NCBI GenBank assembly: GCA_910573755.1
Contig: CAJTBO010000003.1
Location: forward strand, 186,001-250,000
Length of the DNA stretch: 64,000 nt
Source of the DNA: Lachnospiraceae bacterium
Lineage (GTDB): Bacteria > Bacillota > Clostridia > Lachnospirales > Lachnospiraceae
Direction of reading: 5' to 3'
Shown: positions 1,927-19,994 of the stretch, one piece after another
Layout of the letters: each line of letters starts with the position of its first letter
How positions within the stretch are numbered: the first letter of the stretch is position 1
The notes under the pieces: generated by a model
The model's database searches: none
What the model saw: only the letters and a program-made list of their open reading frames with translations
Told to the model about the DNA's origin: nothing
Program-made: the position numbers and the translations under genes

Positions 1927-3501
1927 ATGTCATTGATCAGTGTAAATAATCTGACTTTTCATTATGAAGGAAGTTCAGACAATATTTTTGAAGATGTATC
2001 TTTCCAGATAGATACCAACTGGAAACTGGGATTTGTTGCAAGAAACGGAAGAGGAAAAACAACTTTTCTGAAGCTTTTAATGGGAGAGTATGAGTACAAA
2101 GGAAATATCAGCTGTGAGGAAAGTTTTGATTATTTTCCTTTTATGATAAAAGACAGGGATAAAACTTTTCTGGAAAATATAGATGAGATATATCCGGATT
2201 ATGAACTGTGGAAAGTCAGTAAGGAATTGTCTCTGCTTCATGTGGAAGAAGATGTGCTGTATCGCCCTTTCCGTACTTTAAGTAACGGGGAACAGACGAA
2301 AGCTATGCTGGCAGTTTTATTTTCTCAGGAAAATAAATTTTTGCTGATAGATGAACCAACCAACCATCTTGATGTAAAAGGAAGAGAAAATATCAGAGAA
2401 TATTTAAAGCAAAAGAAAGGATTTATTATGGTTTCACATGACAGAGATATTCTGGATCAGTGCATAAATCATATTCTTGTGATCAATAAAACAAATATAG
2501 AAATATATAAAGGAAATTTTTCTACATGGTGGGAAGAGAAAAAGAAAAAGGACAACTGGGAACTGCAGGAAAATGAAAAACTAAAAAAGAACATTAAAAG
2601 ACTGGAACAGTCTGCCCGGATAAAAGAAGAATGGGCAGATAATATTGAATCCAGAAAAATCGGAAAAAAGGCGGCGGAAGAAGTAAAAAGGAAAGGTATT
2701 TCTCCAAAAGGAAGAAGAGCCTATATCGGAGAAAAAACAAAAAGAATGCAGAAACGCCGTAAAAATCTGGAACACAGAGAGGAGAAGGCAATCGAAGAAA
2801 AATCAGGGCTTCTAAAGAATCTGGAAACAGTGGAGGATTTAAAACTTTTTCCGCTAAAACATTATAAGGATGTACTTGTACATTTATCCGATGTGTGTAT
2901 TTATTATGAGAATGCTGACAGAAGCCGGAAAGATATTGCTATGACAGGATTTAAAATATACAACGGAGAGTGTGTGGTTCTCCACGGAAAAAACGGCTGC
3001 GGAAAATCCAGTATTTTAAAAGCGGTCATTCAGGCTGCAGAAGAAAAAGCCGAGAGGATAAATGAACAAAGTATGTCTTTGGCTGATCCAATCTGTTATA
3101 TAGGAACGATTACTACCGCCGGGGGCCTTAAAATTTCCTATGTACCGCAGGATACTTCTCATTTAAAAGGAAGCCTTACGGATTATGCGGAAAAATATGA
3201 ACTAAATCTCACAAGTTTTTTAATGCTGCTTCGGAAGCTGGATCTGGGAAGGGAACAGTTTGAAAAGAATATGGAAGACTATAGCAGCGGGCAGAAGAAA
3301 AAAGTTCTGATCGCAAGAAGTTTATGTGAGCAGGCACATCTGTATATCTGGGATGAATCTTTAAATTTTGTTGATGTTTTTTCCAAGATGCAGATAGAGG
3401 AACTTCTGATAAAGTATCGCCCCACAATGCTGCTGGTAGAACATGATGCGGCTTTTGTGGAGAAGGTCGGGACAAAGATCATAGAAATAGAAAGTAACTG
3501 A
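1927..3501 (+). CDS. Lsa-type ABC-F ribosomal protection protein
   Basis: The 524-aa soluble protein has two ABC ATPase domains joined by a long charged linker (about residues 200-310) and no membrane segment, which is the ABC-F layout. The start MSLISVNNLTF and the block DTNWKLGF are typical of the Lsa family, whose members displace lincosamides, pleuromutilins and streptogramin A from the ribosome. Domain 1 has signature LSNGEQ and Walker B LLIDEPTNHLD; domain 2 has GKNGCGKS, signature YSSGQ and LYIWDES. Oddly, the first Walker A reads ARNGRGKT, with Ala38 in place of the usual first Gly, and Walker B 2 has DES instead of DEP. The start follows AGAAAGGAGAAC. Expression is probably set by the leader attenuator. 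Resistance spectrum cannot be read from sequence. Confidence 0.85.
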   Translation: MSLISVNNLTFHYEGSSDNIFEDVSFQIDTNWKLGFVARNGRGKTTFLKLLMGEYEYKGNISCEESFDYFPFMIKDRDKTFLENIDEIYPDYELWKVSKELSLLHVEEDVLYRPFRTLSNGEQTKAMLAVLFSQENKFLLIDEPTNHLDVKGRENIREYLKQKKGFIMVSHDRDILDQCINHILVINKTNIEIYKGNFSTWWEEKKKKDNWELQENEKLKKNIKRLEQSARIKEEWADNIESRKIGKKAAEEVKRKGISPKGRRAYIGEKTKRMQKRRKNLEHREEKAIEEKSGLLKNLETVEDLKLFPLKHYKDVLVHLSDVCIYYENADRSRKDIAMTGFKIYNGECVVLHGKNGCGKSSILKAVIQAAEEKAERINEQSMSLADPICYIGTITTAGGLKISYVPQDTSHLKGSLTDYAEKYELNLTSFLMLLRKLDLGREQFEKNMEDYSSGQKKKVLIARSLCEQAHLYIWDESLNFVDVFSKMQIEELLIKYRPTMLLVEHDAAFVEKVGTKIIEIESN

Positions 3502-5133: not shown

Positions 5134-8100
5134 TTATTTACTGTCTTTCCAGAATTCATTTCTTTCCTGACTGGAAGAGACAGCTCTTGCAGTCTGCATT
5201 ACGATCTCGCTGAAATATCTCTCCGGAATTTCTTTGATCTTTTTATTAAAGGTGACATCATACACAGTGATATCCTCATTTTCCCCGGCGACATAAGTAC
5301 CGGAAAAATTGAGTTCTGCCATTAAGCCCTGTTCTTTATCCTCCCGGTAAAAATAGTAGAAGATGCCCGCGTCCTCCGCCTGTCCGCGGTACCAGCCCAT
5401 GTTCTGCATCTTTCCGATCAGGGAAAGATCGTTTAAAATATATCCGCCGAAACGCTCCATTGATTTGGAATCCGCCTCTTCCTCTGTCCTGTGGTAGACA
5501 GGGCGGGAGAGCTGTTCGATGGGCTGGGTGATTTCGTAATCTTCCAGCTGTGTTTTCCATGCGGTAATGGAATCCCCGGATAATTCCACGGGATGGACCA
5601 GACCGATCTTTCCCTGTTTTCCGGACACGGAATTGTTCTGCAGTGAGGCATCCTGTTGCCCGGTGTTATTTTCGGCGTTTTGTGCAACGTTCTGTCCGGA
5701 ATCTGCGGTCTTCTCCGTGGAACCGCAGTTACTTTCCGGAAGAATGAATTCCTCTTCCTCCTCCGTATTGAAACTGCCGTCCTCCATATAGCGGAACGTC
5801 TGTGTCAGTTTATTGTCTTCATAGATCCCCCAGATCAGCCCGATCGCAAACTGGTGCATAATGGGGTTTTCCACAAAGAGTTTTTTCCACGCATCGCAGG
5901 TCCATTTCCGTTCCGTGGAGAGTGCCATTTCCAGACGCATTTTCTGGCTGCTCACAGTGGTTTTCATCTGTTTTTTCATTTCTTTAAAGGCAGCATAACT
6001 TTCCGCGGATTTTTCCGGGTCGTCCTTCTTGCCGGGGGCGGGGAGGTTTTTCAGTTTCTTTCCGTTTTCGTCGAAGACTTCTATTTCCAGAGCCGGCGTG
6101 ATGGTCACGGTAAAGGTTCTTTCGCCGTAATCAAAATGCCTCTCCATTTTTTCATCAAAACCGAGGTCCGGTACAATGCGGTCCGCCAGTTCTTCCGTCG
6201 TGATGCCGAGCTGCTCTGCGGCGAACTTCAGGGCTTCGGCGGCAGCAGCCTTTACCTGCCGGAACTTAAACTTTCTGGAGATGCCGTCCACGATAAGGAG
6301 GGCTTCAGGTTTCGGGTTTAAAGCAAGCGCCTGTACGGCATCTGCGGCAATGGCGCCTCTCGAGTGCTGCGGCCAGTCATTGATCTGGTGCTGGAGTTTT
6401 TTGATGATATCCGTTCCGCCGTGGATGGATGCGGCATAGAGCACCCAGCGCTTCTTTGCCTCCGCGCCGAGGGCGAGCCATTTGTCAAACAGTTCGTTAA
6501 CATAGACCGCAAGCTCCGCTTCATTTAGTTCTGCTGCAAGAGCCGCCGCGTCTTTATTGACGCCGCAGGTTGGCATGGAAGAATAACAGAGCAGGATCGC
6601 CTGCAGATATTCTTCATCCGCCAATATCGGTTCGGAGATAATTTGTTTGCTGCCGGAAACATTACCATCAGGAGCATTACCACCGGAAACATTGCTATCG
6701 GAAACAGCACCGCCCGCCGCCCTTTTGTGCACTTCGGAAAAAGGCGTCTCATAAGCCCACGCCAGAGAACGTTTCTTCCCGCCCTTATGTATCTGCTTTA
6801 CAAGATCCTGCAGAGTCAGAACACCGCCTGCCTGAGAAGCACCCGCATTGAAAAGATCCTGCAGCAAAGTCCTCACTTTACTGTTTTTTTCATTTTCCAA
6901 CAAAGCCGTAAGCTCCGGCTGATATTTTTCTGCATCCCATTTTGCCAGTATGCGGACGGCAAGTTCTCTTTCCACAGCTTTTCTGGAAGAGAGGAAAGCC
7001 AGAATTTCCTCCTCCCAGTTTTTCTGCAGGCAGAGTGCATCATAGAGGGCTTCCTTCACAAGTTTTGAACTGTCCTGAGAAAAAGCCAGTATTTCCGTTT
7101 TATATTCTTCCGGATTTTTCTGCAGGACCGCTATGGCAAAAACTCTGCAGACAGCGTCGGATTCTTTAAATGCCGAAAGAATTTCCTCCCGCTTTACGGT
7201 AAGATATTTACAGAAGATTTCAATTACCGTATTTTTTAACAGTTCCTTGTGTTTTTCATTGCAAAAATACTGGTACATCATGGAGTAAAACTTTAACTGG
7301 TGCAGCGCGTCCAGATGCCCTTCTTCCAGAGATAAAAATACCTGTCGGACATATTGTGTGTAAAGCGTACCGTTGACGATCATTCCGCAATAGAAAAAGT
7401 AAGCGGTGCCGCTCAGGGAATAATAGATCATTGCACGACTGTAAAAATCGTGGTCACGGTAGGTTTCCGCATAGGACTGCAGTAAATGGCTCAGTTTTAA
7501 GATATCGCTCCCGTATCCGTATTTTGAATAGATCCGGTCTTCATAAGTAAGAAAATCGGATAATTCCATCTCACCCCGCAGATATCTTTTCGCTTCGTTA
7601 GGTTGAGGGCATCTCTCCGTGATCAGATTGATCAGCTTTTCCCGTTGTTTTGTGCCGTTTTTGCGCCTCTCAAGGAAGAGGGATTTATCCTCCTGTTCAA
7701 GAATTTTCATCATAACGGAAGAGTCATGAGCATTTGCGTGATCCAGAATCTGCAGAAAGAGCGTTTTATTTTTACGGAACTGTTTTTTCAGAACAAAGTC
7801 CAGTTCTCTGGCGGCAGCCTGCAGGATCAAAGCTTTCTGATCGACATCAAAAAACTCGTCATAGTCACCGCCTGTATACCGGATATCCATCCAGAACCCG
7901 TTGCTGATCGTAGAGGCAATGGTGAACATATCCGGAACGCTTATGGCAAAACAGATTTTTACAACATTTCTTAAAATATCAGACAGGCAGAAATTAAGAA
8001 GCGCTGTCCCGCCGAGAAGATTCATCGTATAAGCAGAAATTTTGCATTTTCTGTTGGAAAGCTTTAATATATTGTCCGTAACCTGATTTTGCCTGATCGC

Positions 8101-8877
8101 CTGTTTAATATTCTGCATAATGGTAGCAGGCATGGTATGGGCATCATATATGTTGATCAGGTTATTGATGAGGATATCTTCATATTGCTGCATCAGAGGA
8201 AGATCCTCTGTGTCCACCTGGCGGCATGTTTCCGGCGTTTTTCCGAAAAATTTATTTACGCCGGCGAGAATGCCGTTTTGTCTTTCTTCTCTATGAAGCA
8301 GTTTTTGGGCATTCGGATATTTGATCAGAAAATAGGCGGCAAGTAAGATCAGCTTTGCGGGGCCGCAGGAATGCATATCTATATTAGATATATTTTTTAT
8401 ATTTTGCGGGTAATCTGCAAGCAGATAGGCTCTTTTGACAGCCTCCGCATCATGATCTGTCAGTTTTATGATCTGTTGGATTCCCGTAGAAATACGGTAC
8501 TGATAAACACCGGCATCCGCTGCATAAACGGCAAGGGCTTTATCCGGGTCAATGGAAAGTTTCCATAGATACATAAGGCCGTTGCCGCCGCCTATACCGC
8601 GGGGAAGCAGGGAAATGCAGCTTGTGCCGCCGATGGCAAAAAGAATCCGGAACAGTTCTCCTGCCTCCTCCATTTTTCCGTATTTAAACAGATTAGTAAA
8701 AGTATTGTCTGTCATTTTCATGGAATTCAGATTCTGATAAGGGAGATCCATCAAAACTTCTTCTCCCTTATCACCGGCTAAATAATTTTCCAGAAGATTC
8801 AGGTGTTCCGGTGACAGTTTCAGTTTTTCCAATAATTTCATTATACTTTCGGTATGTGTCTCTCTTGAAATTCTCAT
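5134..8877 (-). CDS. DUF4132 (MolR/YehI-like) protein, distal copy
   Basis: The 1247-aa soluble protein carries a C-terminal DUF4132 domain (about residues 930-1240). It is recognisable from RKWTCDAWKKLF, HQFAIGLIWGIYED, GLVHPVELSGDSITAWK, and DYEITQPIEQLSRPVY. Escherichia coli YehI and MolR share this domain; its biochemistry is unknown. A HEAT-like helical region (about 560-680) and an Asn/Ser/Gly/Val-rich linker (about 715-745) precede it. The ATG at 8877 has GGAGG 12 bases upstream. It is the last gene of the minus-strand MoxR operon and a tandem paralogue of the gene at 8926-12639. The N-terminal halves have diverged strongly, but about 1.33 kb encoding the C-terminal half is nearly identical in DNA, which points to gene conversion. 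It may be a substrate or effector of the MoxR/VWA pair. Confidence 0.85.
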   Translation of the reverse strand: MRISRETHTESIMKLLEKLKLSPEHLNLLENYLAGDKGEEVLMDLPYQNLNSMKMTDNTFTNLFKYGKMEEAGELFRILFAIGGTSCISLLPRGIGGGNGLMYLWKLSIDPDKALAVYAADAGVYQYRISTGIQQIIKLTDHDAEAVKRAYLLADYPQNIKNISNIDMHSCGPAKLILLAAYFLIKYPNAQKLLHREERQNGILAGVNKFFGKTPETCRQVDTEDLPLMQQYEDILINNLINIYDAHTMPATIMQNIKQAIRQNQVTDNILKLSNRKCKISAYTMNLLGGTALLNFCLSDILRNVVKICFAISVPDMFTIASTISNGFWMDIRYTGGDYDEFFDVDQKALILQAAARELDFVLKKQFRKNKTLFLQILDHANAHDSSVMMKILEQEDKSLFLERRKNGTKQREKLINLITERCPQPNEAKRYLRGEMELSDFLTYEDRIYSKYGYGSDILKLSHLLQSYAETYRDHDFYSRAMIYYSLSGTAYFFYCGMIVNGTLYTQYVRQVFLSLEEGHLDALHQLKFYSMMYQYFCNEKHKELLKNTVIEIFCKYLTVKREEILSAFKESDAVCRVFAIAVLQKNPEEYKTEILAFSQDSSKLVKEALYDALCLQKNWEEEILAFLSSRKAVERELAVRILAKWDAEKYQPELTALLENEKNSKVRTLLQDLFNAGASQAGGVLTLQDLVKQIHKGGKKRSLAWAYETPFSEVHKRAAGGAVSDSNVSGGNAPDGNVSGSKQIISEPILADEEYLQAILLCYSSMPTCGVNKDAAALAAELNEAELAVYVNELFDKWLALGAEAKKRWVLYAASIHGGTDIIKKLQHQINDWPQHSRGAIAADAVQALALNPKPEALLIVDGISRKFKFRQVKAAAAEALKFAAEQLGITTEELADRIVPDLGFDEKMERHFDYGERTFTVTITPALEIEVFDENGKKLKNLPAPGKKDDPEKSAESYAAFKEMKKQMKTTVSSQKMRLEMALSTERKWTCDAWKKLFVENPIMHQFAIGLIWGIYEDNKLTQTFRYMEDGSFNTEEEEEFILPESNCGSTEKTADSGQNVAQNAENNTGQQDASLQNNSVSGKQGKIGLVHPVELSGDSITAWKTQLEDYEITQPIEQLSRPVYHRTEEEADSKSMERFGGYILNDLSLIGKMQNMGWYRGQAEDAGIFYYFYREDKEQGLMAELNFSGTYVAGENEDITVYDVTFNKKIKEIPERYFSEIVMQTARAVSSSQERNEFWKDSK
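5276..6610 (-). repeat. Near-identical tract shared by the two DUF4132 genes (copy 1)
   Basis: This stretch aligns without any gap to 9062-10396 at a constant offset of 3786 bp, with only scattered single-base differences. Divergence rises sharply at both ends: at about 5275 on the gene's 3' side, and just past 6610 towards the repeated linker. The sharp edges inside coding sequence fit recent gene conversion better than a recent whole-gene duplication. Confidence 0.85.
6655..6710 (-). repeat. 15-bp coding repeat, short array (linker of distal DUF4132 gene)
   Basis: About three to four imperfect 15-bp units encode a linker of the form SDSNVSGGNAPDGNVSG. The same array is longer in the upstream paralogue (10440-10548). 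Copy-number difference between otherwise near-identical flanks suggests replication slippage. Confidence 0.7.
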
Positions 8878-8925
8878 GGTTGTTTTGATCCTCCGCTTTG
8901 ATTTTCCTGTAATTTATTTATTATT

Positions 8926-11900
8926 TTATTTTTTCCAGTGTTCATTTCTCTCCTGGCTGGAAGAAACAGCTTTTGCGGTCTGCATCACGATCTCACTGAA
9001 ATACCGATCGGAGAGTTCGCTGATTTTTTTATTAAACTTTACATCAAGAACGGTAACATCTTCATTTTCCCCGGCGACATAAGTGCCGGAAAAATTGAGT
9101 TCTGCCATTAAGCCCTGTTCTTTATCCTCTCGGTAAAAATAGTAGAAGATGCCCGCGTCCTCCGCCTGTCCGCGGTACCAGCCCATGTTCTGCATCTTTC
9201 CGATCAGGGAAAGATCGTTTAAAATATATCCGCCGAAACGCTCCATTGATTTGGAATCCGCCTCATCCTCTGTCCTGTGGTAGACAGGGCGGGAGAGCTG
9301 TTCAATGGGCTGGGTGATCTCGTAATCTTCCAGCTGTGTTTTCCATGCGGTAATGGAATCCCCGGATAATTCCACGGGATGGACCAGACCGATCTTTCCC
9401 TGTTTTCCGGACACGGAATTGTTCTGCGGTGAAGCATTCTGCTGCCCGGTGTTATTTTCGGCGTTTTGTGCAACGTTCTGTCCGGAATCCGCGGTCTTCT
9501 CCGTGGAACCGCAGTTACTTTCCGGAAGAATGAATTCTTCCTCCTCCTCCGTATTGAAACTGCCGTCCTCCATATAGCGGAACGTCTTTGTCAGTTTATT
9601 GTCTTCATAGATCCCCCAGATCAGCCCGATCGCAAACTGGTGCATGATGGAGTTTTCCACAAAGAGTTTTTTCCACGCATCGCAGGTCCATTTCCGTTCC
9701 GTGGAGAGTGCCATTTCCAAACGCATTTTCTGGCTGCTCACAGTGGTTTTCATCTGTTTTTTCATTTCTTTAAAGGCAGCATAACTTTCCGCGGATTTTT
9801 CCGGGTCGTCCTTCTTGCCGGGGGCGGGGAGGTTTTTCAGTTTCTTTCCGTTTTCGTCGAAGACTTCTATTTCCAGAGCCGGCGTGATGGTCACGGTAAA
9901 GGTTCTTTCGCCGTAATCAAAATGCCTCTCCATTTTTTCATCAAAACCGAGGTCCGGTACAATGCGGTCCGCCAGTTCTTCCGTCGTGATGCCGAGCTGC
10001 TCTGCGGCGAACTTCAGGGCTTCGGCGGCGGCAGCCTTTACCTGCCGGAACTTAAACTTTCTGGAGATGCCGTCCACGATAAGGAGGGCTTCGGGTTTCG
10101 GGTTTAAAGCAAGCGCCTGTACGGCATCTGCGGCAATGGCGCCTCTCGAGTGCTGCGGCCAGTCATTGATCTGGTGCTGGAGTTTTTTGATGATATCCGT
10201 TCCGCCGTGGATGGATGCGGCATAGAGCACCCAGCGCTTCTTTGCCTCTGCGCCGAGGGCGAGCCATTTGTCGAACAGTTCGTTAACATAGACCGCAAGC
10301 TCCGCTTCATTTAGTTCTGCTGCAAGAGCCGCCGCGTCTTTATTGACGCCGCAGGTTGGCATGGAAGAATAACAGAGCAGGATCGCCTGCAGATATTTTT
10401 CATCCGCCAGTAATGGCTCAGAGATGATTTGTTTGCTGCCGGCATCATTATCAGAGACATTACTATTATAGCTGTCAGGAACATTACTGCCGGAAATATT
10501 ACCATCAGAAACATTACCACCGGAAACATTACTATCGGAAACCGCACCGTCCGCAGTTTTTTTATGTACTTCGGAAAAAGGTGTCTCATAAGCCCACGCC
10601 AGAGAACGTTTCTTTCCGCCTTTATGCAGTTCCTTTACAAGATCCTGTAACGTTAATACGTTGCCTGCCGACGTGGAATCTTCGTTTAAGAGTTCTGACA
10701 AAAGCGTCCGGATCTTGGCGTTTTTCTCTTTTTCCAGCGCCCCGGTAAGCTTTTCCCTGTATTTTTCAAAGTTTCGTTTTGTTGCCAGCGTGCGGACAGC
10801 CAGATCCCTATCGGCGGCTTTTTTAGAGGAAAGAAGCGCTAAGATTTCTTCCTCCCAGCCGGTCTGTTCATAAAGGACGTTCAAAAGTTCTTCCCTTACG
10901 GCTTTGGAACTGTCCTGTGTGTAGGCAAGCAGTGCTTCCTTATTTTCATCAGGGTTTCTCCGCAGGACCTTTATGGCAAAAACCCTGATAGCGGAATCTG
11001 ATTTCCGGAAAACGGAGAGAAGTTCTTCGCGGTATTTTTCAAGATATGCGGCAAATACTTCTATTGTATCAGTCTCCAGACTGTTTTTGTTTGGTCCGTA
11101 AAAGTGATACTCATACATCTTTACTATAAACGTCAACTGGTGCGCCATATCGAGATGCTCCGATTCAAAAGCAGCAAAGAGCTGCTTTACGGAAATATGG
11201 GAGTTTTGTATTTCATTGTAGAAAAAGGAGATGCTGCCGCGCAGAAGCTGATAGGATACAACCCTGTTATAAAATGCCTCATCATGATAAGTGCCCACAT
11301 AAGAGTGCAGTAAAGGCCTTGCCTGCATAATACTGGGACTGTAGCCATATTGATTGTAAATCTGGTTCTGATAAGGATAGAGTGAGGAAATATCCGCTTC
11401 GCCCCGCAGATATGTTTTCACTGTGTTGATGGCAGGAGTTTTATCCGCAATCAGGTTGATCAGTTTATCCCGTTCTTTGCTGCCGCCGTGTTTTTGTATC
11501 TTTAAGAAAAGCAGTTTATCTTCCTGTTTCAGAACATCCATCATGGCAAAAGAGTCATGGGCATTCGCATCATCCAAAACCTGCAGAAACAGGTCTTTGT
11601 TTTTGTGGTATTGGGTTTTCAGGGCAGCATCCAGTTCTCTGGAAGCTGCCTGCAATATCAGATCTCTGCTGTCTATATCAAAAAAAGTATCATAATCCCC
11701 GCCCATTATCTTTGCATCCATCCAGAAGGAGTCGCTGAGAGCCACCGCATTCGTAAACATAGTGTGAAGGCTTGCCGCGAAACAAACCTTCGCAAAATTT
11801 TTCAGAATGTCAGAAAGTCCGAAATTCAAAAACGCCGCTCCGCCGAAAAGATTCAGAAAATAAGGTATCATCCTGTAGTTTTTTCCCGCAAGCTTTAAAA

Positions 11901-12639
11901 TCCGGTCCGTCACCTGGTTTCTTCTGATCGCCTGGCTTAATTCCTGAAGCGCGGATATGGCGATGGTATTTGTGTCATAAATATTTCCGAGATTATCCGT
12001 CAGAGTGTCTTCATAATATTTCATAAGGGGAAGATCCTCTTTGGCAAGAGGACCCTTTCCGTCAGGGTATTTTGTCAGAAAATAAGCAGTGAGCAAATAT
12101 ACCTGGCCGGCACCGAAGGAATGTATCAGTGAATACGATATATTTTTTTCTGTTAAAGGATAATTTGAAACAAGGTAAGCGTTTTTAATAAGTTCGGAAT
12201 CATTCTTTAGTATTCTGATAAACCAGTGCAGCGTATTGCCCCGGAAAAAATGGGCCTGGGAAGAAAGCTGTTCGGCGGCGACAGCAACGACCTTTGCCGG
12301 ATCGATATCAGGCAGCGTCAGCAGCCGGTTCAGAATTTCCGGGCTGTTCAGATTGGGAACAAGACAATGGCAGCTTGTGCCGCCGATGGCAAAGAGGATA
12401 TGGAAGAGTCTGCCTGACTGTTTGGGATTATCGTACCCGTAAGATACGAGGCAGGTAAGGGCGGGAAGATAAGATTTCGGCGATACGCCCAGATTCTGAT
12501 AGGGAAGTTGGTCTAAAACTTCCGTGTCTTTTTTGCCGGACAGATAAGCTTCCAGATCGTCAAGCTGTTCCTGTGTCAGTTTTAACTGCCCAAGCAGCTC
12601 CATACATTTGTCGAGATAGGTTTCCTTTTGCGTTCGCAT
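8926..12639 (-). CDS. DUF4132 (MolR/YehI-like) protein, proximal copy
   Basis: The 1237-aa product is the tandem paralogue of the gene at 5134-8877 and has the same plan: a divergent helical N-terminal half, HEAT-like repeats (DSAIRVFAIKVLRRNPDENK; DLAVRTLATKRNFEKY), an Asn/Ser/Val-rich linker, and a C-terminal DUF4132 domain. The linker is longer here, with more NVS/NIS units and a SYNSNVSDND segment. It starts at the ATG at 12639, with GGAGG 12 bases upstream and the same spacing as its sister, and the two genes are 48 bp apart. Two variable N-termini on one conserved C-terminus look like diversification of a recognition part over a shared interaction part; that reading is inference. Confidence 0.85.
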   Translation of the reverse strand: MRTQKETYLDKCMELLGQLKLTQEQLDDLEAYLSGKKDTEVLDQLPYQNLGVSPKSYLPALTCLVSYGYDNPKQSGRLFHILFAIGGTSCHCLVPNLNSPEILNRLLTLPDIDPAKVVAVAAEQLSSQAHFFRGNTLHWFIRILKNDSELIKNAYLVSNYPLTEKNISYSLIHSFGAGQVYLLTAYFLTKYPDGKGPLAKEDLPLMKYYEDTLTDNLGNIYDTNTIAISALQELSQAIRRNQVTDRILKLAGKNYRMIPYFLNLFGGAAFLNFGLSDILKNFAKVCFAASLHTMFTNAVALSDSFWMDAKIMGGDYDTFFDIDSRDLILQAASRELDAALKTQYHKNKDLFLQVLDDANAHDSFAMMDVLKQEDKLLFLKIQKHGGSKERDKLINLIADKTPAINTVKTYLRGEADISSLYPYQNQIYNQYGYSPSIMQARPLLHSYVGTYHDEAFYNRVVSYQLLRGSISFFYNEIQNSHISVKQLFAAFESEHLDMAHQLTFIVKMYEYHFYGPNKNSLETDTIEVFAAYLEKYREELLSVFRKSDSAIRVFAIKVLRRNPDENKEALLAYTQDSSKAVREELLNVLYEQTGWEEEILALLSSKKAADRDLAVRTLATKRNFEKYREKLTGALEKEKNAKIRTLLSELLNEDSTSAGNVLTLQDLVKELHKGGKKRSLAWAYETPFSEVHKKTADGAVSDSNVSGGNVSDGNISGSNVPDSYNSNVSDNDAGSKQIISEPLLADEKYLQAILLCYSSMPTCGVNKDAAALAAELNEAELAVYVNELFDKWLALGAEAKKRWVLYAASIHGGTDIIKKLQHQINDWPQHSRGAIAADAVQALALNPKPEALLIVDGISRKFKFRQVKAAAAEALKFAAEQLGITTEELADRIVPDLGFDEKMERHFDYGERTFTVTITPALEIEVFDENGKKLKNLPAPGKKDDPEKSAESYAAFKEMKKQMKTTVSSQKMRLEMALSTERKWTCDAWKKLFVENSIMHQFAIGLIWGIYEDNKLTKTFRYMEDGSFNTEEEEEFILPESNCGSTEKTADSGQNVAQNAENNTGQQNASPQNNSVSGKQGKIGLVHPVELSGDSITAWKTQLEDYEITQPIEQLSRPVYHRTEDEADSKSMERFGGYILNDLSLIGKMQNMGWYRGQAEDAGIFYYFYREDKEQGLMAELNFSGTYVAGENEDVTVLDVKFNKKISELSDRYFSEIVMQTAKAVSSSQERNEHWKK
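9062..10396 (-). repeat. Near-identical tract shared by the two DUF4132 genes (copy 2)
   Basis: This is the partner of 5276-6610 and is gap-free along its whole length. The few differences include Asn/Asp and Pro/Leu changes in the Gln/Asn-rich spacer and a Pro/Ser change near HQFAIG. Confidence 0.85.
10440..10548 (-). repeat. 15-bp coding repeat, long array (linker of proximal DUF4132 gene)
   Basis: Six or seven imperfect 15-bp units encode a pentapeptide-like pattern (SNVSG, GNVSD, GNISG, SNVPD and so on). The array sits just upstream of the near-identical tract and is longer than in the sister gene. It is coding, with no spacer-like unique sequence, and so is not a CRISPR array. Confidence 0.7.
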
Positions 12640-12681
12640 ATTGGGTATTGATCCTCCTTTTTATGATTTAAATATCTGAAG

Positions 12682-13050
12682 TTAAGCTTCTCCAACCGGG
12701 ATTTTTTCCTGCTTCGTCAAATAATAATTTTTTCCTTTGTCGAAGGCGGTTTTTTCTCTGCCGGCTTCTATATATTTTATCAGTTCCGTGTAGTATTTTG
12801 CCGAAAGAGAATCCGCGTCTTTGTCTTTAGAGAGTTGATGTCTGTTTCGGGACAGTTTTTCCTGCAGGGCAAGGAGCAATCCGGAGAGATGCTGCATGCC
12901 GTACTGCGCCGCATGCTCTCCCTTTTCTTTTAGCTCCTGCAGAGTGCTGTCATGAACAGTATGAAATCCGCTCTGACAAAGATCCTCAAGAATGGAGCCG
13001 ATATCTGCAAAAAATTCCTCAAAGTAAGCTTCTTTATTATCTGAATACAT
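12682..13050 (-). CDS. Small helical protein of the MoxR operon (122 aa, unknown)
   Basis: I do not recognise this family. The protein is acidic and appears almost wholly alpha-helical (FEEFFADIGSILEDLCQS, LSGLLLALQEKLSRNRHQL, AKYYTELIKYIEAGREK). It has no signal peptide, TM segment or metal motif. It starts at the ATG at 13050 after a GGATC-type SD and lies between the SWIM gene and the first DUF4132 gene, with 42 bp to the latter. A 177-bp gap separates it from the SWIM gene and could hold an internal promoter. A role as an adaptor or bridging subunit is guesswork from size and position. Confidence 0.65.
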   Translation of the reverse strand: MYSDNKEAYFEEFFADIGSILEDLCQSGFHTVHDSTLQELKEKGEHAAQYGMQHLSGLLLALQEKLSRNRHQLSKDKDADSLSAKYYTELIKYIEAGREKTAFDKGKNYYLTKQEKIPVGEA

Positions 13051-13227
13051 GATGGTCTGTGATCCTTTTTTGTAATATCATAATTTAATATTAATATCCT
13101 GCAGTTGTTGTGTTTGGCAGTGTGTATTTCTATTCCTGTATTCACAGCCTCAACATTTGGTTGATCAGCATGGATCAAACCGGAATCATTGGCTTAATGC
13201 TGCCGGATGCCGGGACAGAAGTGGAAT

Positions 13228-15114
13228 TCAATCGGAACAACGCCATGTGTCCACCGGTATCAGGCGGATGCGTCCGTCTCTTAAATAAATTTTGCCGATA
13301 AAACAGGGCGGACTGTCTTCTTTGATCTTTTCCAGATAACGGATATTTTTCGCCTCCTCTTTGGAATAGGCGAGTTCCAGTATGATTTCCCGTTTTTCCC
13401 TGTCATATAATGACATTAAAAGCATCTGATCCGTCTCGGAAAAGACAGCCTTTTCACAGAAGGCGGGTTGGATCAATACCAGATCCCGTCCCCAGACGCT
13501 TTGTTCTGTTTCGGGCAGTTCGTCTACTGCGGGCTGCATGGCGGATTCCGGAACAGGGGCGGCAGATATATGCATCTGCTTTGTGATCTGTTCCGAAAAT
13601 AATTTCCCGAAATCTTCATAATACCAGCCCGGGACGGCTTCCGGATCAGGCTGGAAATTTCCGAGGATCTCACCTTTTGTTTCTTTGCTGGAAGAGAGAC
13701 GCCTTCGCTCATCGCATTTTGCATTGTTGAGATGAATCCGCAGCATGATCAGATTTTCCAGAGAGCAGGCGAGCCCCCAGGGAGCTTCCGACTTCTGCGG
13801 CTTTCCCCATTTTTTCCGCTGGTCATAAAAAACAGGACGCGCCACGGTATAGGTATACCACCGGTTTGAATCTGTTTCCAGAAAATAGACCGTCTCGCCT
13901 TCATAACCTGCGGCATCTTTGAAATGTTCCATTGTAATACCGATCAGATTCAGATTACCAGCAGAAAGGTAATCCGCGTGGAAGGTTCCGGCTTCCTTCG
14001 CAAGCAGAGTGATATCCTCTGTTTCCAAAAGAATATTTACTCCGGAATATAGTCCGGTGAGCTTTTTCATCAGATCGGCAGTCAGAAAAGATGCCTGTCT
14101 GCTTAAATAGGACTGGTATAAAGTTCCAAGTCCCCTGAAAGCTCTCTCAAGATCAGCAAGTCCGGCATTATGGCTGATAATCGCAAAGCGTTCCAGAGAG
14201 TCCGTCACATCGGGGGAAACTCTCGAAAGTCCCGTTGCCATCAGTTCTTTCAGATAATCTTTCATCTGGGAGGCGGCGTCTTTGACCTGCTTTGGGTCAA
14301 CTGGAATTTCCTTTTTCCGCGCTTCATCCAGATCCTTCAGGGAAAGTGCGCCGGCTTTCAGTTTGCACCATAGGATCGCTTCCGCTTTGTGGATGCAGAG
14401 CTCTTTTTTGTGGCAGGTACAGGATGAATATTCCAGAGGCGAGAGCAATTTTACCGTGGTGTTCTGACCCGGAAGCCGTATGGTGAAGACAGAGGATTCC
14501 TCCATTTCCGGACGGATATTGCTGTCCGCCTTATTTAAAAAGGAAGCAAGATGGCGTGCCCCCATAGTCCTACATAACGCTTTTTCCGGGTAGGAGAGTA
14601 TCTCCTTCCAGAGCTGTTCCTGCATGGAAGAGCCGGCGGCACCGGCTGTATCTGATGTTTTCATTTTTGTTTCGGAAGAATCTTCGGGGGACTCGGCAGC
14701 CTTATCTTGTTCAGGCGAAGTATTATCGGAAAATTCAGCAGCAGCATTCTTTTCATCGGAATCGGGGGATCGTTCTTCTTCATAAAGAACTTCAGCGTTG
14801 TCGCTCAGAGATTCCTTTAACACCAGAATGCCGAGAATAATATGCCTGCAGATACTTCTTGAGGGGCAGGTACATTTACTCTCACCCAGCGGAATACGCA
14901 ATGTGACGGTTTCCCCGTCCACCTGCAAAACGGCTTCTTCTGCTGTCTCCATAATTTTTACACAGGCGGATTCCTTATCCTTGTACGCCCGCTTTACGGT
15001 TCCTTTATTTGTGAGCCCGATTAAATATTCGTCTCCTGTTTCGGCAAGCTGTGTTTTCCAGTTCACGATAATGCTCCTTTTTATCTGATTTTCTGCGCCG
15101 AAGATCCGAATCAT
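13228..15114 (-). CDS. Tandem SWIM zinc-finger protein (YehQ-like)
   Basis: The 628-aa protein has two SWIM-type zinc-binding motifs: CTCPSRSICRH (Cys81, Cys83, Cys89, His91) and CTCHKKELCIH (Cys232, Cys234, Cys240, His242), joined by an acidic Ser/Asp/Glu-rich linker (about residues 108-165). SWIM domains bind nucleic acid or protein. Escherichia coli YehQ has the same domain and sits in the same kind of gene cluster. The C-terminal 350 residues are a mixed alpha/beta region without a motif I can name. The ATG at 15114 has GGAGA eight bases upstream and follows the VWA gene by 30 bp. In the complex it may supply the target-binding part. Confidence 0.85.
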   Translation of the reverse strand: MIRIFGAENQIKRSIIVNWKTQLAETGDEYLIGLTNKGTVKRAYKDKESACVKIMETAEEAVLQVDGETVTLRIPLGESKCTCPSRSICRHIILGILVLKESLSDNAEVLYEEERSPDSDEKNAAAEFSDNTSPEQDKAAESPEDSSETKMKTSDTAGAAGSSMQEQLWKEILSYPEKALCRTMGARHLASFLNKADSNIRPEMEESSVFTIRLPGQNTTVKLLSPLEYSSCTCHKKELCIHKAEAILWCKLKAGALSLKDLDEARKKEIPVDPKQVKDAASQMKDYLKELMATGLSRVSPDVTDSLERFAIISHNAGLADLERAFRGLGTLYQSYLSRQASFLTADLMKKLTGLYSGVNILLETEDITLLAKEAGTFHADYLSAGNLNLIGITMEHFKDAAGYEGETVYFLETDSNRWYTYTVARPVFYDQRKKWGKPQKSEAPWGLACSLENLIMLRIHLNNAKCDERRRLSSSKETKGEILGNFQPDPEAVPGWYYEDFGKLFSEQITKQMHISAAPVPESAMQPAVDELPETEQSVWGRDLVLIQPAFCEKAVFSETDQMLLMSLYDREKREIILELAYSKEEAKNIRYLEKIKEDSPPCFIGKIYLRDGRIRLIPVDTWRCSD

Positions 15115-15144
15115 AAAACATTCTCCGGTCGTCGGCTGTATCGG

Positions 15145-16272
15145 TCAGATGATCTTCCCGATCCACTCAGCCAGCTCTTCCGGCGTCATTGCCCCGACGT
15201 GGGCGCCGAGCCCTGCCAGCGATGCGGCGGCATGCCTGTCATAACAGGGATTGGCATCCATATCCAGAGCGGTCAGCGCGATTAGCTTCGCGCCGCTCTC
15301 GATAATGCCTTTGCTGACACTGTAAAGATTCCGATAACCGTAACCTTCATAGAGATCGGAGATCAGAATGACCATGGTCCGGTAGGGAAAATCGATCAGT
15401 GTCTCGCAGTAGGAGAGGGCGCCGGCGATATTTGTACCGCCGCCGAGCTGAATACTCATAAGGGTTTCCACCGGATCTTCCACATAACCGCTCAGATCCA
15501 CCACTTTCGTATCAAAAATAACAAGTTTTACATCAAGCATCGGAAGCTTCGCGAAGATACCCGCCATAACGGCGCTGTGAATAACGGAATCCAGCATCGA
15601 GCCGCTTTCGTCCACACAGAGGATCACCCGCCAGCTGTTATAGCGTTTCATACGGGAGTTAAAGTAAACCTGTTTTAAGACAAGCTGCTGCTGTTTTGTA
15701 TCATAATTTTTCAGATTCTGCCGTATAGTTTTTTTAATATCCAGATTCCGGGCGGATTTTACAGGGCTTGAGGAAGTCCGGTCCAGTTTGCCGAAAATGG
15801 ATCTTTTTAATTCCTGCTCCATCTTTTTTGTGAGTTCTTCCGCAACTTTGCGCACGATCTCCTTCGCCATATTCAGCACTTCGCCCTTCATCATGTGCTT
15901 TAAGGTAAGGATCGTTTTTAGCAGTTCCCGGTTGGGTTCTAATTTCTGCAAAACTTCCGGGTCTGTCAGCAGTTCGGCCATATTATATTTTTCCAGTGCA
16001 TGGCGTTCCATGACTTCCACGGTCTGCTTTGGAAACAGCTTTTTTACCCGCTGCAGCCATGAAGGTACTGTAAGTTTGCTGTTTTCCCTGCCGCCTGCGC
16101 GGTCTTCCTGCCGGATGCCCTGTTCTTCGCTGTATTCTCTGGAATATAAAAAATCAAGTGCTTCTTCCATATCCATATAGTGCAGGGCATCGCCCGAGAA
16201 CGGAAGTTCCTGCGCCGCATATTTTCCGAGTACAAGCCGCCATCTGTTTAAAAGTTCCTGTTCGTCAATCAT
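15145..16272 (-). CDS. VWA-domain protein, CoxE/YehP-like
   Basis: The 375-aa protein has a helical N-terminal region, including a long charged helix about 125-165, and a C-terminal von Willebrand A domain from about residue 214. The metal-ion-dependent adhesion site is complete: Asp221-x-Ser223-x-Ser225 in VDESGSM, Thr280 in GGGTNI, and Asp306 in ISDLYEG. VWA proteins next to MoxR ATPases act as substrate adaptors for the AAA ring. It follows the DUF5682 gene by 70 bp and precedes the SWIM gene by 30 bp. The absence of a signal peptide or TM indicates a cytosolic location. Confidence 0.88.
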   Translation of the reverse strand: MIDEQELLNRWRLVLGKYAAQELPFSGDALHYMDMEEALDFLYSREYSEEQGIRQEDRAGGRENSKLTVPSWLQRVKKLFPKQTVEVMERHALEKYNMAELLTDPEVLQKLEPNRELLKTILTLKHMMKGEVLNMAKEIVRKVAEELTKKMEQELKRSIFGKLDRTSSSPVKSARNLDIKKTIRQNLKNYDTKQQQLVLKQVYFNSRMKRYNSWRVILCVDESGSMLDSVIHSAVMAGIFAKLPMLDVKLVIFDTKVVDLSGYVEDPVETLMSIQLGGGTNIAGALSYCETLIDFPYRTMVILISDLYEGYGYRNLYSVSKGIIESGAKLIALTALDMDANPCYDRHAAASLAGLGAHVGAMTPEELAEWIGKII

Positions 16273-16342
16273 GAGATATCTCCGCGATCATACATTTTTT
16301 CCGTGTTGTTCCATTTCTTTTTTCATAAACATTTTTTTATTC

Positions 16343-18865
16343 TTAAACTGTTACATGGGATATCCTCTGCCCTATATAAGTATCCAGTTCCTTCCCGTAA
16401 GCATACCAGTCCGGCGGTATTTCCTTCAGCTTTGTGATGTCCCTGCCGCTTCTGCCGTGGAGAGCAGCCGCTTTCTCCGCAATCTTGTCGATTTCTCTCG
16501 GCGTAAAGTAGGTGAAAGCCATGCGGAGTTCCGGAAGCAGTTCCATAAACGCATCTGTCTCTGTCTGCTGCAGAAAGGCATCCAGCATATTCAGGATCTG
16601 TCCGCCGATAAAAATAAGATCCCTTGCGGAGAAGAACAGTCCGCGGAAGAAAAGAGCGGTCTTTTTCATCTGTTCCTTCGTTCCCTGCACATAGCCGAGG
16701 GCCGCCTGTTCAACCAAAGCGCTATCTTCCCAGCCGCCGCCGTAAAGAATGCCGTGGATACAGCCGTCTAAGCCGGCGTGTATCTGTGCATCTTTCTGCA
16801 TCCGGATCAGAATTTCAAAGAACTCTTCCCGTATTTCGCCTTTCGTAAGCTGGTAGAGCAGTTTTACGGCATCCATGCATCTGCCGAGATCCTCATCTTT
16901 CACGGCAGCCATAGACGGCAGCAGGGAGATCAGCTTCCGGATCGTCAGTTCCATGAGCAGATCGAAATTCAGTTTTGACTGATAGAGAGAGCTGAGTTCC
17001 CGCATCATCTTAAAGTGGGAGAGGGCGTCCGCAAGGGAATAAAAGTCCGTATCCTGCCTGATCAGTTCCTGAGCCCTGTCATAAACATTCTGAAGATGCT
17101 CCTTCAGGCCCATTTCAAAGACTTTGGTAAGGAGAATGGCGCATGCGCCGGCGCCGATCTCCTTTTTCAGCTCTTCTTTTACGAGGCTGCCTGCCGCTTC
17201 CTCTATTGTGGCGCCGTAGACAGAGACATCTATCAGAGCGGCGTTTACCTGTGTATTCCATTTATACCGCCAGATCTCCCGGATCAGATTGCGGTCTTTC
17301 TGTTGCTGAAGGTTCGGGCCTTTGACTCTTCTTGCGTAAAAAGTTTTTAAAAAGAGCATGCGGTGAAAAAAGCAGCTTTCTTTTCGATGCTTCTCAGAGG
17401 AAAACAAAGATAATGTTACTTCCGTCTCCAGAGTGGAACCCGTTTTCAGGCTGAACCGGCGGCACTGTGCCTCAAAATCCTGTACAATAGGCGGCACATG
17501 AGCCTGACTGCAGAGTTTTCCGACGGCATTGCCGGTCATATGCTTTCTGAGGATCAGCATCGGCGTGTTCGTGGCGATCGTATATTCGCCTTTTACATAG
17601 GAAGACAGTACCGCGTCAAAAAGTTCATAGGCGCCGGGCTGGCTTTTTCCGCGAAGCGCGGAAAGACCGTCTGCCATCTGAACCGCACAGATCTCGTCGT
17701 AGGTGGACAGATTGCCCTCTTTTCTTCTGACTTCCTTTCCGCAGGATACCAGAAGATCAAGGACTGTCTGCCTGTAACAGTCATCGGGAATTTCTGAAGA
17801 TTTCCCCCATACCTTCTGATAAAAGGCGGGGTAGGGCATACCGCTCGCATAGCCGTTGAGAGCGTCCGCGGCTTCCATGGAATAGGGCATAAGATAGACA
17901 TTCTGTTCACGGCTGTTTACTTTTTTCGCGCTCTTTTTGCGGCCCGGGGTGGAAGGCGCGGCAGGAGAAGATACCTGAAAAGAAGTATCTTCTGAGAGAG
18001 ATGTCCGGGATAGAGCGTTTTCCGGAGAGGATTCCTGCAGAAGCGCGGAAAGAGCAGGCGTGTGAAAACCGCCTGTGACCGCTAAGATCCGCAGAGGGAG
18101 AGAGGATGTATTGCCTTTATCGGAAGACTGTGTCTGCCTCTTTGTAACGGAGAGAGTCCCGGAGCCTGCAGTTGTTTTGGGAAAATTTCCCGCCGCTGCC
18201 TGCAGGATCATATCCGCCATATGTGCTTCCCTTGCCAGGGAACCTTCGTCCTGAAGTACTTCTTCGGGCGTACTTTCCCTTGCCTGTCTGCAGTAGAGCA
18301 GCAGGTCCAGAAACCAGGCGTGGCTGTCCTTGGAGAGTCCGTCTATTTCAAAATACTTTTCCCAGAATTCATCGAAGCTTCTAAGGTTTGCTTTTTCGCA
18401 CAGCTTTTTTACATAAGCGTTCCGGGAAAGCAGATAATCGTCATTGTAATTATTTTTTTCTTCTTTTTTCCGAAGTCCCGCCCCCTGCTTCGATGCGGCA
18501 AGAATATCCCCGTAGGAAAGATCCATAAAGGCTGCGGGAATTCCCAGCTCCCCGGCTGTTTTCAGGGCAACAAGTTCCGGGGAATAGTCTAGAAATGGAT
18601 AATAACATTTATAATGCTCTTTTTCTTCCGAAAGCTGTCCCGCTTTGTCGTAGTAAGAATAGTAAATGGCAAAGGGGGGCTGCGTATCCCGGTGCACCAT
18701 AACAGGTATCAGTTCGTTGGCATTTTCCGGCCCTTCTATTAAAATGACGGAAGGATGATACTCCTCGATCATTTTTCTGACATGAAAGGAACAGGCGGGA
18801 CTATGATGTCTGACAGGAAGCAGTACTATTTCAGCCATTTCCTTGCTTCGTAATATTTTTTCCAT
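16343..18865 (-). CDS. DUF5682 (YehM-like) protein
   Basis: The 840-aa protein begins with a conserved block: VLLPVRHHSPACS (His20, His21) and ILIEGP (Glu44). This paired His/Glu pattern is the hallmark of DUF5682 and recalls EreA/ChaN-type hydrolase folds, so enzymatic activity is possible but unproven. A Ser/Thr-rich linker lies near 245-320; the C-terminal half is helical. The first 40 bases overlap the MoxR gene. I keep the ATG at 18865 because AAGGTGGG precedes it, whereas the alternative ATG at 18838 has a poorly spaced SD. Fixed association with MoxR, VWA and SWIM partners makes it a core subunit of the module. Confidence 0.85.
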   Translation of the reverse strand: MEKILRSKEMAEIVLLPVRHHSPACSFHVRKMIEEYHPSVILIEGPENANELIPVMVHRDTQPPFAIYYSYYDKAGQLSEEKEHYKCYYPFLDYSPELVALKTAGELGIPAAFMDLSYGDILAASKQGAGLRKKEEKNNYNDDYLLSRNAYVKKLCEKANLRSFDEFWEKYFEIDGLSKDSHAWFLDLLLYCRQARESTPEEVLQDEGSLAREAHMADMILQAAAGNFPKTTAGSGTLSVTKRQTQSSDKGNTSSLPLRILAVTGGFHTPALSALLQESSPENALSRTSLSEDTSFQVSSPAAPSTPGRKKSAKKVNSREQNVYLMPYSMEAADALNGYASGMPYPAFYQKVWGKSSEIPDDCYRQTVLDLLVSCGKEVRRKEGNLSTYDEICAVQMADGLSALRGKSQPGAYELFDAVLSSYVKGEYTIATNTPMLILRKHMTGNAVGKLCSQAHVPPIVQDFEAQCRRFSLKTGSTLETEVTLSLFSSEKHRKESCFFHRMLFLKTFYARRVKGPNLQQQKDRNLIREIWRYKWNTQVNAALIDVSVYGATIEEAAGSLVKEELKKEIGAGACAILLTKVFEMGLKEHLQNVYDRAQELIRQDTDFYSLADALSHFKMMRELSSLYQSKLNFDLLMELTIRKLISLLPSMAAVKDEDLGRCMDAVKLLYQLTKGEIREEFFEILIRMQKDAQIHAGLDGCIHGILYGGGWEDSALVEQAALGYVQGTKEQMKKTALFFRGLFFSARDLIFIGGQILNMLDAFLQQTETDAFMELLPELRMAFTYFTPREIDKIAEKAAALHGRSGRDITKLKEIPPDWYAYGKELDTYIGQRISHVTV

Positions 18866-19935
18866 AACCCACCTTCTTTGCTGCTCTTATCCTTGATGAC
18901 GGTAGAAAAGTATTCTTTTACTTTACCTAGATCATCCTTGTTTTCTTTGGAGACCGCGCCCACCAGATTCTGTACAAGGCAGTCCATGTCGATGGATGAA
19001 TCGCCGTAATAATAGCCGGAGATCATCGTCTGATAATAAACGGAAACGGCTTCCGCGGTACTCATAACGGCGCCGGGTTTATCGATCCTGTGACCGTAGG
19101 CGGAGACGCCTTCCCGCAGTTCATGGTAAGTGGAAGCAAGAAGCTTGGCAGCCTCTTCGTCCGGCGTCATGTCGATGCCGTTTTCTCTGGCGAGTTCGCC
19201 CACTTCATTTAATATGATCTGTTTTTCGAGAGCAACTTCCCTGACCGGCATAACGGTCTCAAAATTAAAACGGCGTTTCAAGGCGCTGCTCATTTCATTG
19301 ACGCCCTTATCTCTGGTATTTGCCGTACCGATCACATTAAATCCGGGCTTTGCGAATAAAAAGCCGTCGTCCCCGAGCTCCGGTATATTTAAAACTTTAT
19401 CACTTAAAACGCTGATCAGGGAGTCCTGAATTTCGGCGGGCGTTCTGGTGATCTCCTCAAAACGGGTCAGAATGCCCCGCTCCATTCCCACGTAAAGGGG
19501 AGCCGGAACAAGGGATTCCCGGCTGGGGCCTTTTGCCAGCAGAAGGGCGTAGTTCCAGGAATATTTGATCATATCTTCGGTAGTGCCCGCGGTGCCCTGT
19601 ATGGTGTTGGTACTGACGCCGCTGATGGAAGCGGATAGAAGTTCGGAGAGCATGGTCTTGGCGGTTCCCGGTTCTCCCACCAGCATCAGTCCTCTGTTTC
19701 CGGCGAGGGTGATGATACAGCGTTCGACCAGCGCGTCGTTTCCGAAGTATTTTTTCCGGATGGAAATACTTTCCCCCTGATATGTAACGGGTTTTTGGCT
19801 TCCCAGGATAAAGGTGCGGACCGCCTGCGGCGAGAGCCGCCAGTTCTGCGGTTTTCTTGCGGTATCGGCAGCTTCAAGGGCCGCCAGTTCTTTTTGATAG
19901 CGTATCTCTACGGGTGGTTTAATGCTTTCTCTCAA
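18826..19935 (-). CDS. MoxR-family AAA ATPase (YehL-like)
   Basis: The 369-aa protein has Walker A GEPGTAKT (residues 87-94), a Walker B-like RFEEITRTP (Glu160-Glu161 in place of Asp-Glu), sensor 1 GTANTRD (Asn206), and arginine-finger candidates in ALKRRFNFE. MoxR ATPases form rings that remodel client proteins with VWA partners. I place the start at TTG 19935, since GGAGGA lies eight bases upstream; an ATG at 19974 would fall upstream of the likely transcription start. It is the first gene of the operon, and its 3' end overlaps the DUF5682 gene by 40 bp, which suggests coupled synthesis. Confidence 0.87.
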   Translation of the reverse strand: MRESIKPPVEIRYQKELAALEAADTARKPQNWRLSPQAVRTFILGSQKPVTYQGESISIRKKYFGNDALVERCIITLAGNRGLMLVGEPGTAKTMLSELLSASISGVSTNTIQGTAGTTEDMIKYSWNYALLLAKGPSRESLVPAPLYVGMERGILTRFEEITRTPAEIQDSLISVLSDKVLNIPELGDDGFLFAKPGFNVIGTANTRDKGVNEMSSALKRRFNFETVMPVREVALEKQIILNEVGELARENGIDMTPDEEAAKLLASTYHELREGVSAYGHRIDKPGAVMSTAEAVSVYYQTMISGYYYGDSSIDMDCLVQNLVGAVSKENKDDLGKVKEYFSTVIKDKSSKEGGLWKKYYEARKWLK

Positions 19936-19965
19936 GGGATTATTCCTCCATTTATATTTAATATA

Positions 19966-19994
19966 AGTATACACAGAAATCGGGAAGATTTGAA
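19966..19994 (-). promoter_or_regulatory. Promoter of the MoxR operon
   Basis: Read on the minus strand, TTCAAA (19994-19989) is followed after 17 bp by TATACT (19971-19966), so transcription would start near 19959. The -10 box is good and the -35 weak. The -35 overlaps that of the divergent nucleoside phosphorylase promoter, so the two may compete. Confidence 0.5.

Follow-up and report, generated by a model that had tools for sequence, protein, structure and literature searches.

The 64,000-nucleotide (nt) stretch analysed here, called the window below, comes from a Lachnospiraceae bacterium (GenBank assembly GCA_910573755.1, contig CAJTBO010000003.1, positions 186,001 to 250,000) and carries on its minus strand a seven-gene operon encoding, in this order, a MoxR ATPase, a DUF5682 protein, a VWA protein, a SWIM protein, a protein of 122 amino acids (aa) and a pair of DUF4132 proteins, 1237 and 1247 aa long. 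We found that the DUF4132 genes of the genus are made of two parts with different histories: the front halves form two old classes, and the back halves evolve in concert in three of the four genomes that have two copies. We believe that these proteins could be variable receptors with a constant docking or output half, all served by one MoxR core, a reading that we hold to be evenly poised between right and wrong.

Front and back halves of the DUF4132 genes

The preliminary description of this DNA had drawn attention to diverged N-termini in the DUF4132 pair. This is confirmed here by an identity of 50% over the first ~690 residues; what had been missed is the near-identical C-terminal DNA, the proteins being 99% identical over residues 750-1060. 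At the DNA level the identity of the pair changes in steps, from ~60% in the part of gene A ahead of nt ~2100 to 97-100% over most of the sequence up to nt ~3600 and to ~75-90% after it, and a variable linker interrupts the near-identical tract near its start. The homogenised tract is flanked by divergence on either side and ends short of the gene end, so that conversion or a double exchange is needed, and unequal crossing-over alone was ruled out for the window pair.

Within the genus, DUF4132 was detected in six of nine genomes and DUF5682 in the same six (these tallies, like those for the family and the phylum below, count the window's own genome). The absence from the other three is unsure because their assemblies are 85-87% complete. 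In all six carriers the operon occupies one site with the same neighbours, two of which are missing in G151. The DUF4132 copies number two in four genomes and one in two (class A in G153, class B in G151), and of the two-copy genomes G000 and G157 have the order B-A, whereas G150 and G154 have A-B, swaps that suggest some rearrangement. The preliminary description had reckoned that a fixed locus with a constant number of DUF4132 genes would speak against its view; the site is indeed fixed in the genus (6/6 carriers), but the copies vary between one and two.

In the tree of residues 1-690 the copies sorted into classes across species and not by genome, and the constraint of a same-genome pair was rejected (approximately unbiased test, p-AU 5e-49 for G150 and 7e-66 for G000). 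Class B was supported at 92/99; class A as a whole, which stands beside the long outgroup branch, was weak (59/68), with four of its five members grouping at 86/98. The tree of residues 760-1200 instead grouped the pairs of G000, G150 and G157, each with starred support, and rejected a clade of all class A copies (p-AU 5e-11); the G154 pair, whose C-parts are 88% identical, was not shown as a clade. From these discordant trees it follows that the front halves split before the species did and that the back halves were homogenised again in at least three lineages, and a simple recent duplication is ruled out. The C-parts, whose identity reaches 100% over 309 nt, could also be expected from a young tandem duplicate or from an assembly error in a repeat. 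We find this hardly credible, considering that the N-parts fall in two classes older than the species, that diverged sequence encloses the tract at either end, and that two further genomes of the genus repeat the pattern strongly and a third one weakly, each with a C sequence of its own.

Loci, copy number and array pairs beyond the genus

A scan of species genomes with a VWA alignment yielded 287 relatives, and we analysed the best 80 of the 287 loci, which include genomes already present in our other sets. The order MoxR, DUF5682, VWA, SWIM, (small protein), DUF4132 was unbroken in 80/80 as far as each stretch reaches. DUF4132 was visible in 61 loci, the small protein in 35, and two or three DUF4132 genes or parts in 12; many of the 19 stretches lacking DUF4132 end early, whereas L113, L125 and L145 have room for it yet show none. 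When whole genomes were searched (49, chosen for their VWA match and mostly from Lachnospiraceae), all 49 had DUF4132, with 1-7 genes (maximum in G185) and more than one match in 26, a few matches being halves of one gene or members of a longer class. Tandem arrays of three and four genes were present, with a spacing of ~3.6 kb. It had been proposed to look for DUF4132 as the variable element of this neighbourhood, and the constant core order together with the changing gene number agrees with that proposal. In larger samples the distribution is patchy: DUF4132 occurs in 15/150 and DUF5682 in 17/150 genomes drawn from the family, and DUF4132 in 9/398 of a sample of the phylum.

Two observations concern the arrangement and size of these genes. 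In G013 (L065, L066, L067) the core operon has no adjoining DUF4132 and the DUF4132 genes lie on other contigs, so array and core are separable. The longer DUF4132 class, with frames of ~1,490-1,790 aa, was met within the family in G019, G048, G051, G054, G111 and others, mostly genomes without DUF5682.

For adjacent array pairs, C identity exceeded N identity in 33/33 (three of them from a near-duplicate genome), with medians of 75 and 40%. By itself this proves little, because slower evolution of the C-part relative to the N-part is the general rule (62 vs 25% in different-genome pairs), and a comparison at equal C identity is needed. At 90-95% C, the five different-genome pairs had N identities of 82, 73, 79, 82 and, for a class A/B pair, 48%, and the five array-neighbour pairs with at least 90% C had 44-58%. 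At 80-90% C the median N was 48 for array pairs (n=8) vs 54 for different-genome pairs (n=72), and below 80% C the array neighbours had higher, not lower, N identities than different-genome pairs. The 95-100% row is no control, since its sole different-genome pairs come from the near-duplicates G192 and G198. To judge from these identities, recent homogenisation is clear in a few pairs, those of the window genus, G195 and G182, and does not extend to every array.

Other Lachnospiraceae carry distant MoxR, DUF5682 and VWA proteins (21-45% identity), mostly in genomes without DUF4132. In a second locus type (L204, L206, L208 and L209) we found SWIM, a protein of 606-742 aa, MoxR, DUF5682 and VWA with no DUF4132 nearby, the SWIM gene standing ahead of MoxR in the four loci tested. 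Of the three such proteins tested (606-665 aa), two gave weak HEAT matches, below cut-off; a partner of HEAT type may therefore be part of the basic design, and what sets the first locus type apart may be that this partner was fused to the DUF4132 C-region and multiplied.

The yeh locus of Escherichia coli

The domain set had been matched to yehLMPQ plus yehI of E. coli, correctly so: in MG1655 the same families are annotated, with yehL as MoxR, yehM as DUF5682, yehP as VWA, yehQ as SWIM and yehI as DUF4132 (yehH is a pseudogene). The two loci share the five families and the core order MoxR-DUF5682-VWA-SWIM. In annotated E. coli strains yehLMPQ is preceded by two or three DUF4132 genes in tandem, whereas in the window, which also has the 122-aa protein, the array comes after the core. 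These E. coli genes fall in three paralogue classes, namely an optional first gene, molR and yehI. In a sample of ten strains taken at even steps down the ranking of molR back halves, molR directly followed metG in 9/10, and one strain had an extra copy. A query spanning yehF-yehK found some match in 5371/5426 E. coli genomes and was covered by at least 80% in 4019; the molR C-part was covered by at least 80% in 5275/5426, and the front-half allele types I, II and III covered 3375, 667 and 146 genomes, counts that may overlap.

As in the window pair, the front of molR is variable and its back constant. In nine strains (the query strain L158 plus eight of the ten even-step strains, two having been dropped for a broken molR) the N identity was 58-100% (median 80) and the C identity 94-100% (median 97), with the sharpest variation at residues 541-660 (median identity 37-46%). 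The genes yehL, yehM, yehP and yehQ were 95-100% identical in a separate strain set, and yehI and the optional first gene were less variable than molR, which for these two in the nine-strain set refers to identities only. We then have the median synonymous divergence per site (dS), obtained from strains drawn from rows spread by similarity, so that divergent strains are over-represented and undefined pairs are omitted: 0.78 for molR N, 0.23 for molR C and 0.13-0.18 for yehLMPQ. The high dS of the molR front half relative to its neighbours points to old or imported alleles. Positive selection on molR was considered and discarded: in the initial sliding ratio of nonsynonymous to synonymous divergence (dN/dS), dS came out very low in the hypervariable segment because saturated pairs had been omitted. 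Considering also that the pooled ratio of nonsynonymous to synonymous polymorphism (pN/pS) in the variable part is at most 0.63 throughout, we make no claim of dN/dS>1.

Damage was annotated for molR in 2/10 and for yehI in 1/10 of the even-step strains, and in L158, L188, L189, L190, L191, L196 and L197 the annotation gives yehL, yehM, yehP or molR as frameshifted, interrupted or split. The system seems to undergo occasional decay in E. coli. A truncated DUF4132 gene of L187 lies beside IS26 and a CTX-M-15 gene.

These data bear on the possibility that the core is a housekeeping chaperone that matures cell complexes, the DUF4132 proteins being client adaptors whose solenoids drift fast since HEAT repeats tolerate change, without any conflict-related recognition of a target. 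MoxR proteins have been described as maturation chaperones (PMC3893208; this and the other papers named below are cited from excerpts), and a growth effect linking lepA and molR has been reported (PMC4245954). The single fixed site in the genus, the array-region match in nearly all E. coli genomes and a pN/pS below 1 throughout would also suit such a role. We nevertheless judge it unlikely, though to be taken seriously, since the dS of the molR front half in the divergence-picked strains (0.78 vs 0.13-0.18 for yehLMPQ) is above the drift expected at a single locus, the annotation of several strains marks core or receptor genes as broken and the DUF4132 copy number ranges from 1 to 7.

An older view, in which the literature calls MolR a regulator (PMC4245954 among the sources), would make the DUF4132 proteins nucleic-acid-linked regulators or damage-response factors, with WGR and SWIM binding DNA or RNA and MoxR/VWA resetting the system. 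It agrees with the WGR domain found at the N-terminus of the first gene product and of MolR in the one E. coli strain tested, and with a Deinococcus regulon that includes a DUF4132 gene, this gene and a WGR gene going up on DdrO depletion (PMC8533742). Neither the window DUF4132 proteins nor YehI gave a WGR match in Pfam, though, and a regulator has no obvious need for front-half alleles or tandem arrays, so that we regard this explanation as quite improbable.

Predicted folds and conserved residues

In the AlphaFold 2 (AF2) model of a DUF4132 relative (L049:14486-17974; mean predicted local distance difference test score, pLDDT, 90.5), residues 4-650 are all-helical and a separate alpha+beta part covers residues 664-1162. 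The front half is thus predicted to be a HEAT-like alpha-solenoid followed by a distinct C-region, and on this model the boundary between variable and constant sequence falls near the domain joint; 69 of the 70 invariant columns lie beyond residue 600. An architecture of variable and constant parts is also what a polymorphic effector would present, the variable part then being the weapon and not the sensor. Against this, the prediction for the variable part is a helical solenoid, and no enzyme family matches it; we consider such an effector very improbable.

The N-terminal His/Glu pattern that had been noticed in the DUF5682 protein (H20, E44, R212-E213, G265..H268) was conserved in 59/59 aligned relatives. 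The protein comprises an N-terminal domain (~7-294) and C-terminal helical repeats, and the former probably has a TIKI/TraB-like fold, the pattern being equated, by residue type and order only, with the 2His/2Glu set described for TIKI/TraB (PMC6254334). Against Pfam, the relatives gave weak matches to ChaN (7/59, best 0.021) and to TraB (4/59, best 0.017), and the window protein itself matched neither of the two families in Pfam. A sequence search of the PDB with the DUF5682 profile returned nothing useful.

A possible receptor mechanism

If the DUF4132 proteins are receptors with a constant half, an ATP-driven core of MoxR, VWA, DUF5682 (probably TIKI/TraB-like) and SWIM would serve several of them interchangeably. 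The variable HEAT-like solenoid of each receptor would bind a target and the constant C-region would dock to the core or give the output. Once a target is bound, MoxR/VWA could remodel the receptor and release or activate the core, in which DUF5682 would be the likeliest hydrolase, cutting or hydrolysing something, and the SWIM protein might bind protein or nucleic acid. New specificities could come from front halves that diverge or are imported, and gene conversion between tandem copies could keep the back halves matched to the core. From the pattern of variation we guess that phages, mobile DNA or rivals are the source of the targets. The two paralogues had previously been called exchangeable recognition subunits; exchangeability gains from the variable front and constant back, the 1-7 copies, the swapped order and the E. 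coli alleles, and recognition itself is what we infer.

A wider version of the receptor reading is that nearly all E. coli and many gut Lachnospiraceae possess a multi-receptor innate immune machine, with one core and an array of HEAT solenoids, whose sensing halves diversify by allele import or paralogy and whose docking halves are kept alike by gene conversion. We advance this tentatively, as possible but on balance rather unlikely. If true, it would be a bacterial counterpart, in layout, of immune receptors with variable and constant parts; nearly every E. coli would hold an unrecognised receptor-based system, partly decayed in some strains, and MoxR-vWA systems would gain a diversified sensor independent of retroelements. 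The yeh genes have no settled function, and the split, the concerted evolution and the allele classes give a testable idea of receptor specificity.

Several results weigh against receptors of this kind or against their use in defence. Besides the slower evolution of the C-part in general, 23/49 genomes have a single DUF4132 match. The homogenisation that is strong in the window genus was not seen between the E. coli copies (C identity of 41-63% between copies), which vary by alleles of one copy, and the pooled pN/pS of molR reveals no excess of amino-acid changes, so that its variability may exist without a recognition role. No fold could be assigned to the DUF4132 C-region, the match lists being filled by solenoid matches. 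As to defence, PADLOC models matched 0/7 operon proteins, and ten flank proteins from four genomes of other genera were mostly metabolic or signalling, with no defence neighbours among them; weak matches to LmuB and ZorA both fell on one carbohydrate-active protein of these ten. Viral contigs were nearly devoid of the system, a distant (34%) VWA relative appearing in 2/55 pattern stretches. Moreover, unlike many defence genes, the operon has a fixed site in the genus and its counterpart is species-wide in E. coli. The defence or stress machine of the preliminary description is therefore not shown by these searches, and a defence role is plausible as far as the sequences tell.

Carriage by phages or plasmids, and hence a mobile system, was likewise not supported by the viral-contig, phage and plasmid searches, the plasmids yielding only short MoxR-type pieces in 13 records. 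An unannotated 14-kb record labelled 'Bacteriophage sp.' (MT835988.1, 12861-13925) encodes a MoxR protein 43% identical to that of the window; the record may be bacterial DNA.

Relation to known systems

The general MoxR-vWA conflict framework is already known (Kaur et al. 2020, PMC7159879). Its ternary systems, of the VMAP, iSTAND and FtsH types, join MoxR and a CoxE-like VWA protein to further components, and the MoxR/VWA pair has been proposed as a switch coupling sensing to output. The kinship with such systems that had been suggested for the operon holds for the MoxR/CoxE-like VWA pair but not for the third component: by sequence profiles only, the seven window proteins gave no Pfam match to VMAP, iSTAND, FtsH or beta-propeller, and the window MoxR scored 21.6 bits against bpMoxR, below the cut-off of 27. 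No effector domain is fused to the window VWA protein, and it is the solenoid receptors of the window system, rather than any effectors, that are diverse. The words MolR, YehP, YehL, SWIM, DUF5682 and DUF4132 are absent from its main text.

A variable putative sensor is also attached to a MoxR system in the VMAP sensors diversified by diversity-generating retroelements (DGR; PMC10907252), whereas allele exchange, paralogy and gene conversion seem to account for the variation described here. A Pfam scan found no reverse transcriptase among the 17 open reading frames (ORFs) of the window, no wider DGR search having been made. RavA-ViaA is not known to have a DUF4132, DUF5682 or SWIM partner. It resembles the window system in pairing a MoxR ATPase with a VWA partner, and E. 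coli YehL has been placed in a separate YehL subfamily of MoxR (PMC3893208). Elsewhere the locus is touched upon in passing, with a transposon insertion site near metG (PMC9334617), and the molR promoter is reported to be activated by BglJ-RcsB (PMC5025477). Among the matches listed in the full-text literature, we found no description of the variable/constant DUF4132 split or of the arrays; DUF4132 is named in three of the papers and DUF5682 in none.

The operon in the window

The minus-strand operon and its named families are present as first described (Table 1), with Pfam matches for MoxR, DUF5682, VWA, SWIM and both DUF4132 proteins, and with gaps of -40, 70, 30, 177, 42 and 48 nt between successive genes. 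In the ORFs of the window it spans 5134-19974, with a mechanical MoxR start at GTG 19974. This start is disfavoured, and the true one is probably TTG 19935, because GGAGG stands upstream of the latter and the protein has the matching length of 369 aa in all five genus relatives. The metal ion-dependent adhesion site (MIDAS) reported for the VWA protein is intact (DESGS at residue 221); the protein has 375 aa and matched VWA families only. The tandem SWIM assignment also holds, with CxC..CxH twice, at residues 81 and 232. The 122-aa protein stays without a Pfam family, as before, and a single sub-threshold match to Csm6 (16 bits vs a cut-off of 150) was ignored. Promoter-like sites of the quality of the one ahead of the operon numbered 22 in the sequence vs 19.5 in shuffles.

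Table 1. Features of the operon and their positions in the window.
Feature	Position	Strand	Basis
Promoter-like TTCAAA-17-TATACT ahead of operon	19966..19994	-	Consensus match only, 9/12
MoxR AAA+ ATPase, YehL-like	18826..19935	-	AAA_5 E 2.9e-31 (Pfam)
DUF5682 protein	16343..18865	-	DUF5682 E 1.6e-99 (Pfam)
VWA protein, CoxE/YehP type, intact MIDAS	15145..16272	-	VWA_CoxE E 4.8e-44; DESGS, GGGT, SDL
Two-SWIM zinc protein, YehQ type	13228..15114	-	SWIM E 6.4e-4, exactly at Pfam cut-off; CxC..CxH motifs
122-aa protein	12682..13050	-	No Pfam match; relatives in 35/80 loci between SWIM and DUF4132
DUF4132 protein, N-terminal class B	8926..12639	-	DUF4132 E 1.7e-47; class from identity and trees
Variable N-terminal HEAT-like solenoid (predicted), copy B	10616..12639	-	50% identity to copy A; fold inferred from AF2 model of relative
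Homogenised constant C-terminal tract, copy B	9064..10615	-	Limits approximate; variable linker near start
DUF4132 protein, N-terminal class A	5134..8877	-	DUF4132 E 8.6e-49; class from identity and trees
Variable N-terminal HEAT-like solenoid (predicted), copy A	6779..8877	-	50% identity to copy B; fold inferred from AF2 model of relative
Homogenised constant C-terminal tract, copy A	5278..6778	-	Limits approximate; longest identical run 309 nt

The operon is flanked on one side by a phosphorylase-superfamily gene, a GHKL kinase / LytTR pair and an ABC/FtsX pair, and on the other by a DUF6709 gene and an ABC-type ATPase gene. Beside the latter (1927-3501), the GC content drops to 0.30 at positions 1-2000 of the window. 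The overlap of the MoxR and DUF5682 frames (18826-18865) was exactly 40 nt in 67 of the 68 relatives measured, and may reflect coupled translation.

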